Assembly: GCF_017833035.1 (NCBI RefSeq)
Contig: NZ_JAFIBM010000001.1
Span: 62,001-126,000 of the forward strand
Length of the DNA: 64,000 bases
Source of the DNA: Frigoribacterium sp. PvP032
GTDB lineage: Bacteria > Actinomycetota > Actinomycetes > Actinomycetales > Microbacteriaceae
Direction: 5' to 3'
The position numbers and the translations under genes were made by a program. How positions within the stretch are numbered: position 1 is the first letter of the stretch; every line of letters starts with the position of its first letter. Positions 25,158 to 29,595 of this stretch are shown here, piece after piece. The notes under the pieces are model-generated. The model was given only the letters and a program-made list of their open reading frames with translations, was not told the origin of the DNA and made no database searches.

Positions 25158-26377
25158 CTCGTCCCGGCCACGGCACGTACTGGCAGAGCCGCCGGCTGAG
25201 CGCACGGGCGAGGCTCACCGCCACCTTCACCGGGCTGCTCTTCGTGGTGGGGGCCGCCATCGTGACGAGCGTCTTCCTCGTGATGCGCTACCTCCCCCGC
25301 TACGACATCACCGCCCTCGCCAGCCCGGCGGACGTGACGCAGCCCGGCGAGGTCGCTACCGCCGCGCCCGCACCGACGACGGACGCCCTCCCCGAGGGCG
25401 CCTGGGCACCACACGCGAGCCCTTTCTCCGACGTGCTCGTCCGGGACACGCTCACGATCAACGGCGAGGGCGACCTGCTCCGAGTGCTGTCGACCACCTC
25501 GCTGGTGGTGTTCGCCGTGGTCCTCGTGCTGGGCGCCTGGCTCAGCTGGATCCTGGCCGGGCGCCTCCTGCGGCCCCTCGACCACCTGACGGACGCGGCG
25601 CGCACGGCCGAGCTCGGCCAGGCGACACGACGGCCGACGCTCGAGCGGGGGCGCGTCGCCCTGAGCGGCCCGCACGACGAGTTCCACCGTCTCGCGGCCG
25701 CCTTCGACGCCATGCTCGAGCGCCTGGACGTGGCGTACCGCGCCCAGCAGCACTTCGCCGCGAACGCGTCGCACGAGCTGAGGACCCCGCTCGCCACGAC
25801 GCAGGCCATGCTCGACGTCGCGCTCGCCGAGCCGGCGAGCGTCGACGTCGAGCAGCTGGGACGGCGACTCCGCGAGACCAACACCCGCAGCCTGAAGACG
25901 GTGGAGGCGCTGCTCACGCTCGCCGACGCGACCGGCGGCCAGGTCGACGACGGCCCCGTCGACCTCCGCGCGCTGGTGGAGGAGGCCGTGGCCCGGGCGG
26001 TGCCCGCCGCCGCCACGGCGGGCACGACGTTCGAGCACGACCTCGACGACCTGGTCGTCGACGGCGACCACGTGCTCCTCACGGCGCTGGTGGCGAACCT
26101 GCTCGACAACGCCCTCCAGCACGGACGCCCGGGCGGCCATGTCGGCGTCACGCTCCGCGGACGGACGCTGACGGTCGTGAACGACGGGGACGTCCTCGAC
26201 CCTGACGAGGTGGCGAAGCTCAGCGAGGCGTTCCGCCGAGGGGCCGGCCGCGTCGCGGGCGCCGGCGGCCACGGTCTCGGCCTGGCGATCGTCTCGGCGA
26301 TCTGTGACCGGCACGAGGCCGGGCTCGAGCTCGTCGCCGTCCCCGGCGGCGGCCTCCGCGTCGACGTCGCGTTCTGA
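25154..26377 (+). CDS. Sensor histidine kinase
   Basis: Membrane kinase of 407 residues. Two transmembrane helices (about 22-45 and 115-140) flank an external segment of about 70 residues; then HAMP (RPLDHLTDAAR), dimerisation domain with phospho-acceptor His in NASHELRTPLATTQ, and catalytic domain with N box NLLDNALQHG and G2 box GHGLGLAIV. The small external domain suits detection of envelope stress or of the exported compound. Confidence 0.94.
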   Translation: MTRPGHGTYWQSRRLSARARLTATFTGLLFVVGAAIVTSVFLVMRYLPRYDITALASPADVTQPGEVATAAPAPTTDALPEGAWAPHASPFSDVLVRDTLTINGEGDLLRVLSTTSLVVFAVVLVLGAWLSWILAGRLLRPLDHLTDAARTAELGQATRRPTLERGRVALSGPHDEFHRLAAAFDAMLERLDVAYRAQQHFAANASHELRTPLATTQAMLDVALAEPASVDVEQLGRRLRETNTRSLKTVEALLTLADATGGQVDDGPVDLRALVEEAVARAVPAAATAGTTFEHDLDDLVVDGDHVLLTALVANLLDNALQHGRPGGHVGVTLRGRTLTVVNDGDVLDPDEVAKLSEAFRRGAGRVAGAGGHGLGLAIVSAICDRHEAGLELVAVPGGGLRVDVAF

Positions 26378-26415
26378 GCGACACGCACCTCGGACGGCAC
26401 CCCGGCGGCCGGGCG

Positions 26416-27138
26416 TCAGTCGCCGACGGCCTCCGGCGTCTCGGCGGTCCAGAGGATGCCCAGCACCTCCGGCGCCGTGACGATCCTCGCGATCGCCGCC
26501 TCCATCGCGAGGTCGTCACGGCCGCCGGCCGACGCGGTGATCTCGATGCACACGCGCTCGTGGGCCTCGTCCTCCGCCGCGATCGACCGGAGCACGAACG
26601 GCGACCGGTGGACGGCGTCGAAGGCGAGCCGCCGGATCTCGGCCTCGTGGCGGGTGGCACAGGTGACCGTGAGCCGGTAGTCCGTCTCGGACGACTCACG
26701 AGCCGCCTCGGGCGCCCGGTCGAGGACGAGGCCCAGCGGCCGCAGCCCGACGTTGACCAGGATGACGAGGGCGGCGCCGGCGGCGGCGACCAGGGGCAGC
26801 CCTCCCCCGGCGAGCGCCCCCACGGCAGCCGCGACCCAGATGGTCGCGGCGGAGTTCAGCCCCGAGATGGAGGCGCCGTGCTTCATGATGACGCCGGCCC
26901 CGATGAACCCGACCCCCGAGGCGATCTGCGCCGCCACCCGGGTCGGGTCCACCTGCTCGCCCTCGAACGAGCGAGCGCCCATCACGACGAAGAGGGCCGC
27001 CCCGAGCGCGACGAGGGCGTTGGTCCGCAGACCGGCGCTCCGTGCCCTCACCTGACGCTCGGCCCCCACCGCCGCGCCGAGCAGGGCGGCGAGGGCCACG
27101 CCGCCGAGTTCGGGGGCGAGAACGGCGAGGTCCGTCAC
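26416..27138 (-). CDS. MgtC/SapB-family membrane protein
   Basis: Protein of 240 residues with about four N-terminal hydrophobic segments (1-135) containing the family signature GVGFIGAGVIMKHG and LNSAATIWVAAAVGALAG, followed by a C-terminal cytoplasmic ACT-like domain (about 150-235) as in MgtC of intracellular pathogens. MgtC proteins help growth in low magnesium and limit F1Fo-ATPase in Salmonella and Mycobacterium. It is the second gene of a magnesium operon, 4 nt after the MgtE-like gene, behind an M-box. Confidence 0.93.
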   Translation of the reverse strand: MTDLAVLAPELGGVALAALLGAAVGAERQVRARSAGLRTNALVALGAALFVVMGARSFEGEQVDPTRVAAQIASGVGFIGAGVIMKHGASISGLNSAATIWVAAAVGALAGGGLPLVAAAGAALVILVNVGLRPLGLVLDRAPEAARESSETDYRLTVTCATRHEAEIRRLAFDAVHRSPFVLRSIAAEDEAHERVCIEITASAGGRDDLAMEAAIARIVTAPEVLGILWTAETPEAVGD

Positions 27139-27142
27139 GGCC

Positions 27143-27781
27143 TCACACCAGCTTGTCGCTGAGGACGAGCGCGGCGATCGAGAAGTAGATCGTGACCCCG
27201 ACGAGGTCCATGATCGACGTGATCAGGGGCGCCGAGAGCGTCGCGGGGTCGATCTTCACGGCGCGCGCCGCGAACGGCAGCACCGCCCCGAGCAGCCCGC
27301 CGATGACGGTCACGACCAGCATCGTGCCGCCGACGATGATCATGACGTCGAGGTCGACGCTCTTGACCACGAAGGCGAGCGCGACCTCGATGACGGCCAC
27401 CGTGGCGCCGAGGCACGAGGCCACGACGAGCTCGCGGCGGACGATGGACCACACGTCGCGCCAGCCGATCCTGACCGTGCCGACGGCCATGGACCGGATG
27501 ACCAGCGTCGCCGCCTGGCTGCCCGTGTTGCCCCCCATGTCGATGATCGGGGCGAGGAACGCCGCGAGGATGAGCGCCGACGTGAGGATGTCCTCCTGGG
27601 CGGCGACGAGGGTGCTCGTCACGACCCCGAAGAGGGTGAGGAGGATGAGCCAGGTGGCCCGGTTGAGGAACAGCTTGCGGAGGGACGAGTGCTTGGCGTC
27701 CAGGTCGCGCCGGACGGGGCTGGCGGCGAAGACGGGCGACGTCGTGTCGCAGCGCTCGCAGGTGGTGGTGGAGTCGGTCAT
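27143..27781 (-). CDS. MgtE-like magnesium transporter, membrane domain only
   Basis: Protein of 212 residues matching only the transmembrane domain of MgtE (Mg2+ channel): five hydrophobic segments with FLAPIIDMGGNTGSQAAT (the MgtE pore signature) and APLITSIMDLVGVTIYFSIA. The N domain and CBS gating domains of classical MgtE are absent; instead there is a 40-residue N-terminus with CERC. GAGAGG precedes the ATG. Magnesium gating must differ from full-length MgtE, unless another protein supplies it. Confidence 0.93.
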   Translation of the reverse strand: MTDSTTTCERCDTTSPVFAASPVRRDLDAKHSSLRKLFLNRATWLILLTLFGVVTSTLVAAQEDILTSALILAAFLAPIIDMGGNTGSQAATLVIRSMAVGTVRIGWRDVWSIVRRELVVASCLGATVAVIEVALAFVVKSVDLDVMIIVGGTMLVVTVIGGLLGAVLPFAARAVKIDPATLSAPLITSIMDLVGVTIYFSIAALVLSDKLV

Positions 27782-27815
27782 GGTGGTGCCTCTCGGTCGT
27801 ACGTGCCGTGCAGGA

Positions 27816-27832
27816 GGCGCGCTGAGCGCGCC
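27816..27832 (-). promoter_or_regulatory. GC hairpin in the mgtE leader
   Basis: GGCGCGC and GCGCGCC form a 7-bp stem with a 3-nt loop, 34 nt before the MgtE-like start codon and after the upstream ORF. It may be part of the expression platform. Confidence 0.5.
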
Positions 27833-27861
27833 GCGCCGGGGCGACCGTGGACAGCGTGCTG

Positions 27862-27912
27862 TCAGGCTCGCCCTCGACGGGGAGGGAGTGTCCGTCTGTG
27901 ACCACTGCCCAT
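27862..27912 (-). CDS. Pro/Arg-rich upstream ORF in the magnesium operon leader
   Basis: A 16-codon ORF, MGSGHRRTLPPRRGRA, lies between the M-box and the MgtE-like gene. AGGAGGT, a full match to the anti-Shine-Dalgarno sequence, ends 8 nt before its ATG, a better site than that of the structural gene. It contains the codon run Leu-Pro-Pro-Arg-Arg and a rare AGA. Its stop codon overlaps the hairpin GACAGC/GCTGTC (27850-27863). The content recalls the Pro/Arg-rich MgtL and proline-containing MgtP leader peptides of Salmonella mgtA and mgtCBR, where ribosome stalling controls transcription. This role is inference. Confidence 0.55.
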   Translation of the reverse strand: MGSGHRRTLPPRRGRA

Positions 27913-28007
27913 GCAGCACCACCTCCTCCGGACCGGGCCCGCAGGCCGCCTTCGTCCTGACGACGGGACGGTCGTCAGCGCACCCGACAGAGAGCCGGAC
28001 GACACCC

Positions 28008-28172
28008 CCACGTAAGAGCTTCAGCACTGCACGACGTGATCCCGACGACCGACGGTCGCGCGGGAAGCCACTTCGGATCACCCCTTGAGCCGGAGAGATC
28101 TGTCCTGACCCTGGGCGTCTCTCGACGTCGTCGGATCAGTGGCCTGTGTTCGTGCAGACGCCTCGCCTAACG
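28008..28172 (-). ncRNA. M-box (ykoK) magnesium riboswitch
   Basis: Read on the minus strand, the element opens with CGTTAGGCGAGGC (M-box consensus GUUAGGUGAGGCU) and closes with CAGTGCTGAAGCTCTTACG (consensus CAGUGCUAAAGCUCUACG). CTGCACG near the 5' end pairs exactly with CGTGCAG near the 3' end, forming the same helix as UGUAUGG/CCAUACA in the Bacillus element. The central CAGGGTCAGGACAG also matches. Length (165 nt), position after a clear promoter and downstream magnesium genes all agree. It should bind Mg2+ and shut off the operon when magnesium is plentiful. Confidence 0.9.
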
Positions 28173-28187
28173 AGATGCCGTACGCCG

Positions 28188-28216
28188 ACGATACTGATGT
28201 ATCACTCTCGCGTCAA
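28188..28216 (-). promoter_or_regulatory. Promoter of the magnesium operon
   Basis: On the minus strand TTGACG and TATCGT are separated by exactly 17 bp, with the predicted start about 10 nt before the M-box. GATACATCAGTATC, a short palindrome, overlaps the -10. Confidence 0.8.
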
Positions 28217-28526
28217 GGCTCCGTGGGCCGAGGGGTGCGAGCGAGCCGGACGTGCACGACGAGACCGCCGCCGGGTCGCGGCGCGAGGGCGAGCCGGCCG
28301 CCGTGCGCCCGCACGATCGTCTCGACGATCGCGAGGCCGAGACCCGTGCCGCCGTGCTGGTCGTGCAGGCGCCCGGCGCTGCGCCGGAACGGCTGCGTGA
28401 GCGTCGGCACCAGGTCGGCGGGCACCTCCTCGCCGGTGTTCTCGACCACGAGCTCGACGTGGTCTCCGCTGACCACGGTCCGCACGTGCACCACCCGCGC
28501 GCACGCATCGGAGTCCACGCCGTCGG
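28213..28526 (-). pseudogene. Remnant of a sensor histidine kinase (ATPase domain only)
   Basis: About 100 codons encode the C-terminal part of a kinase catalytic domain: VVENTGEEVPADLVP, FRRSAGRLHDQHGG and the G2 box GTGLGLAIVETIVRAHGG, ending in a normal stop. The dimerisation domain, His box, membrane part and any partner regulator are missing. The homologous sequence stops exactly where the family 1 palindrome at 28527-28610 begins, and no start codon with a ribosome site precedes it. Confidence 0.85.
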
Positions 28527-28610
28527 CTGAGCTCGAGGGCGGGTCGCCTGGCTCGAGGGCGGGTCGCCGCGGACCCGCCCTCGGCGCAGGCGACCCGCCC
28601 TCGAGCTCAG
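28527..28610. repeat. Family 1 palindrome, copy 2
   Basis: Inverted repeat with 38-bp arms (three mismatches), each with two GAGGGCGGGT units, around an 8-nt centre. It directly abuts the histidine kinase remnant. Confidence 0.95.
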
Positions 28611-28659
28611 CAGGGCGTTCGGGCCGAGGCTCGGCCGCTCTGATCGGTAGGCTCCGGAC

Positions 28660-29409
28660 GTGGCCACCACCCTCTACGAGCAGATCGCGGACGACCTGCG
28701 TCGTCGCATCCTCAGCGGCGACCTCGCGGTCGGCGACGACGTTCCCAGCGAGGGCGAGCTCGCGGAGCAGTGGCGCACCTCCCGCGGGCCGATCCGCAAC
28801 GCCCTGGCGGCACTGCGCAGCGAGGGGCTCGTCGAGACCCGTCGCGGCCGGCCCGCCCGCGTGGTCGCGCGGAAGGCGCACCACCCCGTCGACGTGTCGA
28901 TCCCGTTCACGAAGTGGGTGCGCGACGTGGGCGGCGAGCCGGGGGCCAGGACGCAGGAGGTGTCGCTCCGGCGCGCGGACGACGAGAAGGCGAGGGCGCT
29001 GGGCATCGAGCCGGGCGACCTCGTCGTCGACGTCGTGCGCCTGAGGCTCGTCGACGGGCGCCCCACGATGCTCGAGCGTCTCACCTTCATCGAGGAGGTC
29101 GGCCGGGTGCTCTTCGACGTCGACCTCGACACGGTCTCGATCACCGAGTACCTCGACTCCCGAGGCTTCGGCTACGACGACATCGACCACGAGATCGACG
29201 CCGTCGCGGCCGACGAGCTCGACGCCGAGCTGCTCGACGTCGAGCCGGGCACGCCGATCCTGCGCCTGCACCGCGTGACCCGCGGCCGCGACGGCCGCAC
29301 CTTCGAGGCGTCGGACGACCGCTACCGGAGCGACATCGTGCGCTTCACGGTGGCGGCGTCGGGCCGCGCTCGCGAGGGCGGCCACTTCATCCGCGCCATC
29401 GGCGCCTGA
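28660..29409 (+). CDS. GntR-family regulator (HutC/PhnF type)
   Basis: Protein of 249 residues: N-terminal winged helix domain (residues 1-70, YEQIADDLRRRILSGDLAVG, then SRGPIRNALAALRSEGLV) and C-terminal UTRA effector-binding domain (about 95-235). This is the PhnF/HutC subgroup. It lies convergent to the end of the phosphonate operon, so it is the likely regulator of that operon. TAGGCT ends 6 nt before the GTG start, with no Shine-Dalgarno sequence: leaderless. Confidence 0.92.
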   Translation: MATTLYEQIADDLRRRILSGDLAVGDDVPSEGELAEQWRTSRGPIRNALAALRSEGLVETRRGRPARVVARKAHHPVDVSIPFTKWVRDVGGEPGARTQEVSLRRADDEKARALGIEPGDLVVDVVRLRLVDGRPTMLERLTFIEEVGRVLFDVDLDTVSITEYLDSRGFGYDDIDHEIDAVAADELDAELLDVEPGTPILRLHRVTRGRDGRTFEASDDRYRSDIVRFTVAASGRAREGGHFIRAIGA

Positions 29410-29472: not shown

Positions 29473-29542
29473 CGAGGGCGGGTCAACTCGGTCGAGGGCG
29501 GGTCGCCGCGGACCCGCCCTCGAGGCAAGTGACCCGCCCTCG
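29473..29542. repeat. Family 1 palindrome, copy 3
   Basis: Arms of 32 bp with GAGGGCGGGT at each end and the centre GCCGCG, located between the convergent gntR and alcohol dehydrogenase genes. The outer and inner units are conserved; the spacer between them differs from the other copies. Confidence 0.93.
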
Positions 29543-29595
29543 ACGAGAACGAGAAGGCGGCGGAGGCGGCGGCGCGAACGCGCAGGAGCGAGCCG

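Follow-up and report, generated by a model that had tools for sequence, protein, structure and literature searches.

Conserved ribosome entry site and first codons of a short open reading frame between an M-box and magnesium genes in actinobacteria

In the 64-kb stretch of DNA analysed here (the window), a short upstream open reading frame (uORF) lies between an M-box, which is a magnesium-sensing RNA switch, and an mgtE–mgtC operon. Judged from the sequences compared, it is the start of this mini-gene, and not its proline-rich tail, that resembles tiny genes in many actinobacteria: the ribosome-binding site, the start codon and the first five to seven codons were shown to be conserved, and the tail with its Pro-Pro pair is free to vary. 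We hypothesize that access of ribosomes to the uORF is gated by the M-box and that uORF translation protects the leader of what would be a Mg2+-starvation operon from Rho, a proposal drawn from analogy that we regard as having an even chance of being right. Similar starts occur in many actinobacteria, in a few cases without an M-box, so the uORF may also be a magnesium control element in its own right.

The first-pass annotation had described a 16-codon ORF preceded by AGGAGGT at 8-nt spacing between the M-box and mgtE–mgtC, and the sequence confirmed it (Table 1). Along the minus strand, the promoter is followed by the M-box, 71 nt of leader, the Shine–Dalgarno sequence (SD), 8 nt, the uORF, 80 nt, mgtE and mgtC. 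The motif AGGAGGT-N7-9-ATG occurs once on the two strands of the window, at the uORF start, and a genome-wide RF00380 search found one M-box. The peptide contains 2 Pro and 5 Arg among its 16 residues, with Pro10-Pro11 and an Arg-rich tail. The mgtE product matches TIGR00400 only at positions 273–447 of 450, below the cut-off. No intrinsic terminator was found in 26300–28400, and the leader is not more structured than its shuffled versions (z −0.48, with an equal or better fold in 60 of 200 shuffles). The hairpin that the annotation had drawn around the stop codon exists to the extent that its 5-bp stem holds two stop-codon bases and appears in the minimum free energy (MFE) fold; it is nothing special, given this leader z score and a hairpin sequence that the sister genome G012 does not share.

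Table 1. Features of the uORF leader and operon (window coordinates)
Feature	Position	Strand	Basis
Promoter, sigma-70-like, TTGACG-17-TATCGT	28188..28216	(-)	Pattern scan: 1 found vs 0.1 expected
M-box riboswitch aptamer, RF00380	27999..28181	(-)	128.7 bits, gathering score 44, model positions 1-169 (full-length)
Shine–Dalgarno AGGAGGT of uORF	27921..27927	(-)	Sequence; 8 nt to ATG
uORF MGSGHRRTLPPRRGRA, 16 codons, ATG 27912-27910, TGA 27864-27862	27862..27912	(-)	Sequence
Conserved block (SD, start and first five uORF codons)	27898..27929	(-)	G012 comparison
Hairpin GACAG-CACG-CTGTC, 5-bp stem, 4-nt loop, over uORF stop codon	27850..27863	(-)	Sequence and MFE fold
mgtE-type gene, membrane part only, 212 aa	27143..27781	(-)	Pfam MgtE 103.6 bits
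mgtC-type gene, 240 aa	26416..27138	(-)	Pfam MgtC 116.8 bits, MgtC_SapB_C 51.6 bits

Upstream of this locus, the stretch adjoining the promoter (28213–28500, minus strand) resembles a sensor kinase at its ATPase end (GGTGLGLAIVETIVRAHGG, ORF 28213–29385), the rest of the gene being absent. Inverted GC-rich repeats (GAGGGCGGGTC and its complement, 28531–28610 and 29473–29543) flank a GntR-like gene at 28660–29409.

Within the genus, an M-box was present in two of 16 genomes (G000 and G012), and the same two carry this MgtE, which marks the whole module as patchy. Between the window and G012, the promoter region (28217–28182) is 83% identical and the aptamer agrees in 173 of 183 nt. The block running from the SD to codon 5 matches in 29 of 32 nt, against 62%, 67% and 72% identity in the neighbouring leader segments, namely aptamer to SD, uORF codon 6 to stop, and uORF stop to the mgtE SD; the SD and start of mgtE match in 15 of 16 nt. 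Directly after codon 5, a one-base length difference places the tail and stop of G012 in another frame, and the G012 uORF, as read, stays open for 106 codons and runs into mgtE. Ser6 of the G012 uORF agrees with most relatives, residue 7 is Arg in the window and Ala in G012, and the H-R-R-T of the window is near the tail start H-(R/E)-P-T common to L015–L017, so that either frame may be the older one. Whichever came first, neither Pro-Pro nor the stop is conserved in frame; conservation covers the ribosome entry site and the initial codons.

To place the leader among its relatives, RF00380 was searched in samples of 398 family, 396 order, 394 class and 376 phylum genomes, some of which are common to several samples. 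Matches were obtained in 18 genomes of the family (17 over the cut-off), 15 of the order, 26 of the class and 31 of the phylum; the locus below the cut-off (L018, 30.7 bits) was excluded from the 82-locus and 20-locus counts that follow. Under a strict rule (AGGAGGT or GGAGGTG, a start codon 4–9 nt later, at most 160 nt from the aptamer), a strong SD with a start follows the aptamer at 56 of 82 class M-box loci, against 0.44 expected from shuffled leaders, and in 18 of 24 genera, against 0.10 expected. The arrangement noted in the annotation, an M-box and then a short uORF before Mg2+ genes, is real and, with a conserved start, recurrent across actinobacteria. The annotation's expectation that the ORF be conserved wherever the M-box is held largely for the start, found at 12 of 20 M-box loci in the window's family by the strict rule and 17 of 20 by a looser SD rule, and failed for the Pro codons. 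Three family loci (L012, L020 and L021) show no such uORF under the looser rule, and in genus g88 of the order, represented by 9 loci, the M-box mostly leads straight into the transporter gene. The downstream products in the loci inspected are MgtA, MgtE, Nramp, CorA and ABC transporter proteins.

From SD-led starts, one uORF per locus was chosen by hand, with no fixed rule where a choice existed (e.g., L006, L017, L079 and L080), giving 76 uORFs. Eight of these were located by typed motif (L048, L069, L077, L083, L098, L119, L121 and L122); they are kept in the 76-uORF counts, many members of which are closely related, non-independent mycobacterial copies from genus g190. Genus g190 is probably Mycobacterium, since its genomes have more than one M-box and the proteins encoded downstream are PPE-like. 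Ser, Asp, Pro and His are frequent among the first seven residues, with MSxxDSP, MSDDHSP and MDDPHSR as typical N-termini. Examples are MSPGDSPYPRS and MSSSDSPDRYP in g190, MSPGHSPRLSW in Frankia (L050), MSDDHSPFR in g55, which is Leifsonia-like by its operon, MSADHSRSY in Mycetocola and MDDPHSRSS in g25. Starts outside the class include MPEDGERPSR, MDDDPRSSK and MESDPG, as well as MDSEPG in other classes; MRRRSSMTD of g248 and MPDGSDRVP of g217 are poor fits that score no better than background on the profile. The window peptide is itself an outlier, having no acidic residue and Arg at both positions 6 and 7.

In the annotation's model, the Pro codons would be the sensor: ribosomes would stall at Pro-Pro under low Mg2+ and the region of the stop-codon hairpin would switch, as for MgtL and MgtP of Salmonella. 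The window's own Pro10-Pro11 and Arg-rich tail suit this idea, as does the Pro-rich mgtP, which, in the available part of PMC3641672, has three consecutive Pro codons upstream of mgtC. Against it, Pro-Pro within the first 25 residues occurs in only four of the 76 uORFs (L001, which is the window, L023, L048 and L060), the tail and stop are lost in G012, and the leader fold is as ordinary as described above; we consider Pro stalling very improbable.

A different constraint appears at codon 6, which encodes Ser in 55 of the 76 uORFs. The codon is AGT in 49 of these 55 (13 of 16 at genus level), compared with 4.5% of the 1517 Ser codons in downstream long ORFs. Such a fixed rare codon would be expected if the block acted as RNA or served simply to load ribosomes, the peptide sequence being irrelevant, and the weak coding signature of the tail points the same way. 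Against this reading, Pro7 is written with all four codons (23 CCG, 11 CCC, 4 CCA and 3 CCT), the start codon varies among ATG, GTG and TTG, and a 6-nt insertion in the uORF of L045 keeps the frame, so that we judge either form of this reading quite unlikely. Within uORF types, 35, 26 and 41 of 170 columns vary at codon positions 1, 2 and 3, respectively. This pattern is only mildly coding-like, and constraint is therefore claimed for the first codons and not for the tail.

Two further features of these codons were observed. In many loci, fixed AGT at codons 2 and 6 gives each of the two remaining frames a stop no later than codon 6 (TGA in ATGAGT, TAG in SATAGT), an arrangement absent from the window. 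At L077 and L083, 84–86 nt past the aptamer, mycobacterial-type uORF copies seemingly start with ATT and keep the following codons.

A start-block DNA pattern built from known loci and run on 84,980 species genomes matched at 14 places, all in genera that we take to be actinobacterial, the taxonomy having been looked up for two species, Mycetocola saprophilus and Leucobacter edaphi, which NCBI assigns to Microbacteriaceae, probably the family of the window. Seven of the matches are loci used to build the pattern (L085, L086, L087, L089, L092, L093 and L097). Among the seven new ones, L088 and L090 have an M-box, L084 and L091 stand before mgtA–mgtC, L096 is found with the ABC operon of M-box relatives, and L094 and L095 are unexplained, L094 being probably a chance match. 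An M-box over the gathering score is present at nine of the 14 places, and the other five gave no M-box at E up to 1. A similar pattern, run on the 398 genomes of the family, gave seven matches in seven genomes and its reversed control none; six matches fall on already known M-box loci and the seventh is Leucobacter edaphi again, so this search shows the block to be rare there, not new there.

The clearest M-box-free cases are two Leucobacter operons (L084:2523–6336 and L091:3611–7329), in which the start block precedes an MgtA-type ATPase (1204 and 1207 bits against NF011702, cut-off 975) and MgtC, with no detectable M-box. The two leaders, from Leucobacter sp. UT-8R-CII-1-4 and L. edaphi, have diverged around an identical stretch of 37 nt that runs from GAGGAGG to codon 7. 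The whole L. edaphi genome (G171) has no M-box at E up to 1, and only 150 nt, less than the length of an M-box, separate an upstream terminator-like hairpin (17 pairs) from the uORF start. In Leifsonia sp. TF02-11 (L096), the aptamer is gone, and the SD with codons 1–12 is identical to that of the M-box-bearing L. aquatica and differs by one base from G367. These Leucobacter and Leifsonia leaders support, in relatives of the window, the annotation's suggestion that the two layers of control are independent. The uORF probably has a function of its own for Mg2+ genes, given that some leaders in which no M-box was detected have kept the start block. Start blocks of this kind stand before unrelated Mg2+ transporters across actinobacteria, and also before mgtA–mgtC where no M-box was detected, which speaks for a general element of Mg2+ leaders; the M-box-free copies offer natural constructs of the uORF without the riboswitch.

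In Leifsonia and relatives (L008, L090:2477–5578 and L096:1471–3207), the uORF, with or without an M-box, lies before an ABC transporter comprising a fused permease and an ATPase with an AAA_assoc_C domain; judging from this position, the transporter is possibly a Mg2+-linked importer. In Nocardia donostiensis (L095:4729–5467), MSSGHSPHPHRFRFSAT precedes a 151-aa protein without Pfam or NCBIfam match, with no detectable M-box.

A peptide acting in trans, for instance one that joins Mg2+ transporters as a small subunit or regulates them, in the manner suggested for Rv1805A with PE20–PPE31, would account for the conserved N-terminal residues and for the M-box-free copies, among them Rv0115A (PMC12810186). 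Such a role is hard to combine with the same kind of start before transporters as unrelated as MgtA, MgtE, Nramp, CorA and ABC proteins, or with a fixed rare codon. Neither the sequence nor the length of the tails is constant (13 to 47 codons in 73 of the 76 uORFs), a pattern that suits a cis element more than it does a folded peptide, and we find a trans-acting peptide distinctly unlikely.

The boldest reading is suggested by the acidic, Pro-containing starts of many relatives, namely that early acidic residues and Pro destabilise the ribosome in the way of MgtL, with drop-off at low Mg2+ switching the leader; the uORF would then add ribosome-based Mg2+ sensing to that of the M-box. With one uORF per genus (26 genera, not fully independent; uORFs located by typed motif left out), acidic residues occupy 34 of 156 places at positions 2–7 and 3 of 130 at positions 8–12 (p 2.5e-7); the downstream main genes have 15 of 144 at positions 2–7 (p 0.008), and 20 of the 26 genera have an acidic residue within positions 2–6. 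Starts such as MESDPG and MDSEPG recall the EPDP of MgtL, associated with ribosome drop-off in the available part of PMC11282234, and Asp2/Glu5 of MgtQ, given in that of PMC8092293. The M-box-free copies before mgtA–mgtC also agree with such a sensor. On the other side, the window peptide does not match this description, having no acidic residue, and neither do the MSPGHSP types; the acidic residues of MgtL and MgtQ are spaced more tightly or sit nearer to the start, the reading gives no reason for the fixed AGT codon, and the genera cannot count as fully independent. On balance, ribosome destabilisation appears unlikely. If it were true that acidic starts act as MgtL does, ribosome-based Mg2+ sensing would have been reached independently in two bacterial phyla.

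In a wider form, an actinobacterial leader-peptide family (MSxxDSP, MSDDHSP, MDDPHSR and MESDPG, often with the fixed rare AGT) may serve as a ribosome-based Mg2+ sensor beside the M-box and be able to work alone, as in Leucobacter mgtA–mgtC; it would have arisen independently of MgtL, with Rv1805A as one branch. We offer this only tentatively and consider it rather doubtful; the case is weakened by half of the pattern matches being already known loci.

The gate at the uORF, which we favour, is modelled on M. tuberculosis. There, D'Halluin et al. 2026 (PMC12810186) used reporters, Rho depletion and northern blots to show that the pe20 M-box controls a conserved uORF2 (Rv1805A), acting through a translational platform together with termination by Rho. 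Applied to the window, this would make the uORF, and not mgtE, the first regulated reading frame. The RNA would start at the aptamer, from the pattern-predicted promoter just upstream. At high Mg2+, with the aptamer folded, the downstream leader would hide the uORF ribosome-binding site, and on the untranslated leader Rho would halt RNA polymerase before mgtE, both steps following the pe20 analogy. At low Mg2+, the site would open and a ribosome starting on the uORF would shield the RNA, allowing mgtE–mgtC to be transcribed. The uORF's own job would be this cis effect of the translating ribosome, and the window peptide may have kept only the entry function.

In favour of the gate we counted the presence of its parts, the conserved entry site, the failure to find a terminator and the pe20 precedent. 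Counted against it were the outlier status of the window peptide, the three of 20 family loci without a uORF and the mild coding signature. The main M. tuberculosis termination site also counts against it, lying upstream of the uORF, which in the authors' view suggests termination independent of uORF translation (PMC12810186). In 33 leaders chosen from 63, neither the uORF start nor the aptamer 3' end paired with the leader better than in dinucleotide shuffles (window z +0.72 and +0.59); z was at or below −2 for the start region in L008 and for the aptamer end in L003 and L061, and in no other leader. Hence no specific anti-SD is claimed. When 29 mycobacterial leaders were folded to a consensus, no long helix joined leader and start region.

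SD accessibility was considered as evidence for the gate and rejected. Computed for 74 of the 76 leaders (those with a start more than 170 nt away or no short SD string were skipped), it was higher with the aptamer tail in 49 of 74, but above shuffled tails in only 35 of 74. The window values are 0.14 without the aptamer 3' strand, 0.23 with it and 0.15 with a shuffled one.

Several known systems are close to the window leader. With the ykoK M-box of B. subtilis it has in common an RF00380 aptamer before an MgtE-type gene; unlike the window, the B. subtilis leader has an intrinsic terminator, according to the available part of PMC12810186. Like MgtP and MgtQ of the Salmonella mgtCBR operon, the uORF is a short ORF tied to mgtC, and MgtQ likewise has AGGAGG as well as acidic residues; however, the consecutive Pro codons of MgtP are conserved, which is not so here, and MgtQ lies between mgtC and mgtB. 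The mgtA leader of E. coli and Salmonella resembles it in carrying a short ORF, MgtL, in a Mg2+-responsive leader, in that case with Rho-dependent termination, and many relatives, though not the window, have early acidic residues and Pro as MgtL does. The window peptide differs from MgtL in having no acidic residue, in belonging to another phylum and in following an M-box in place of the mgtA leader.

The closest parallels are the M. tuberculosis pe20 and rv1535 leaders, which likewise combine an M-box, a strong-SD uORF with a conserved N-terminus and a Mg2+-linked operon (including mgtC in the case of pe20). For these leaders as for the window, no intrinsic terminator is reported or found, and M-box-free uORF copies exist. 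The conserved uORF in these leaders means that the pairing of M-box and uORF, proposed in the annotation for an actinobacterium, has a precedent among actinobacteria (PMC12810186). Rv1805A was called mycobacteria-specific there, its function being left open with a suggested role alongside PE20–PPE31 and with Rv0115A as an M-box-free homologue (PMC12810186). Among the matches listed in a literature search, seen as titles and abstract openings and with subscription literature mostly outside its scope, no other paper described such uORFs outside mycobacteria; the available part of PMC4833913 makes no mention of magnesium. Compared with the Rv1805A/uORF2 N-terminus, the window peptide shows MxSGH, common to part of the wider set, and its uORF ranks third of 117 SD-led starts in the window on the family profile, with two of the 116 others higher. 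Rv1805A has Pro at position 7 and PE/PPE genes downstream, in contrast to Arg7 and mgtE–mgtC in the window. Since Pro7 is absent (Arg7 in the window, Ala7 in G012), we call the window ORF a divergent counterpart of Rv1805A/uORF2 in position, and not a member. The peptide is described as mycobacteria-specific in PMC12810186; in the present comparison, uORFs of the same form occur in many actinobacterial genera, also before mgtA–mgtC without a detectable M-box.
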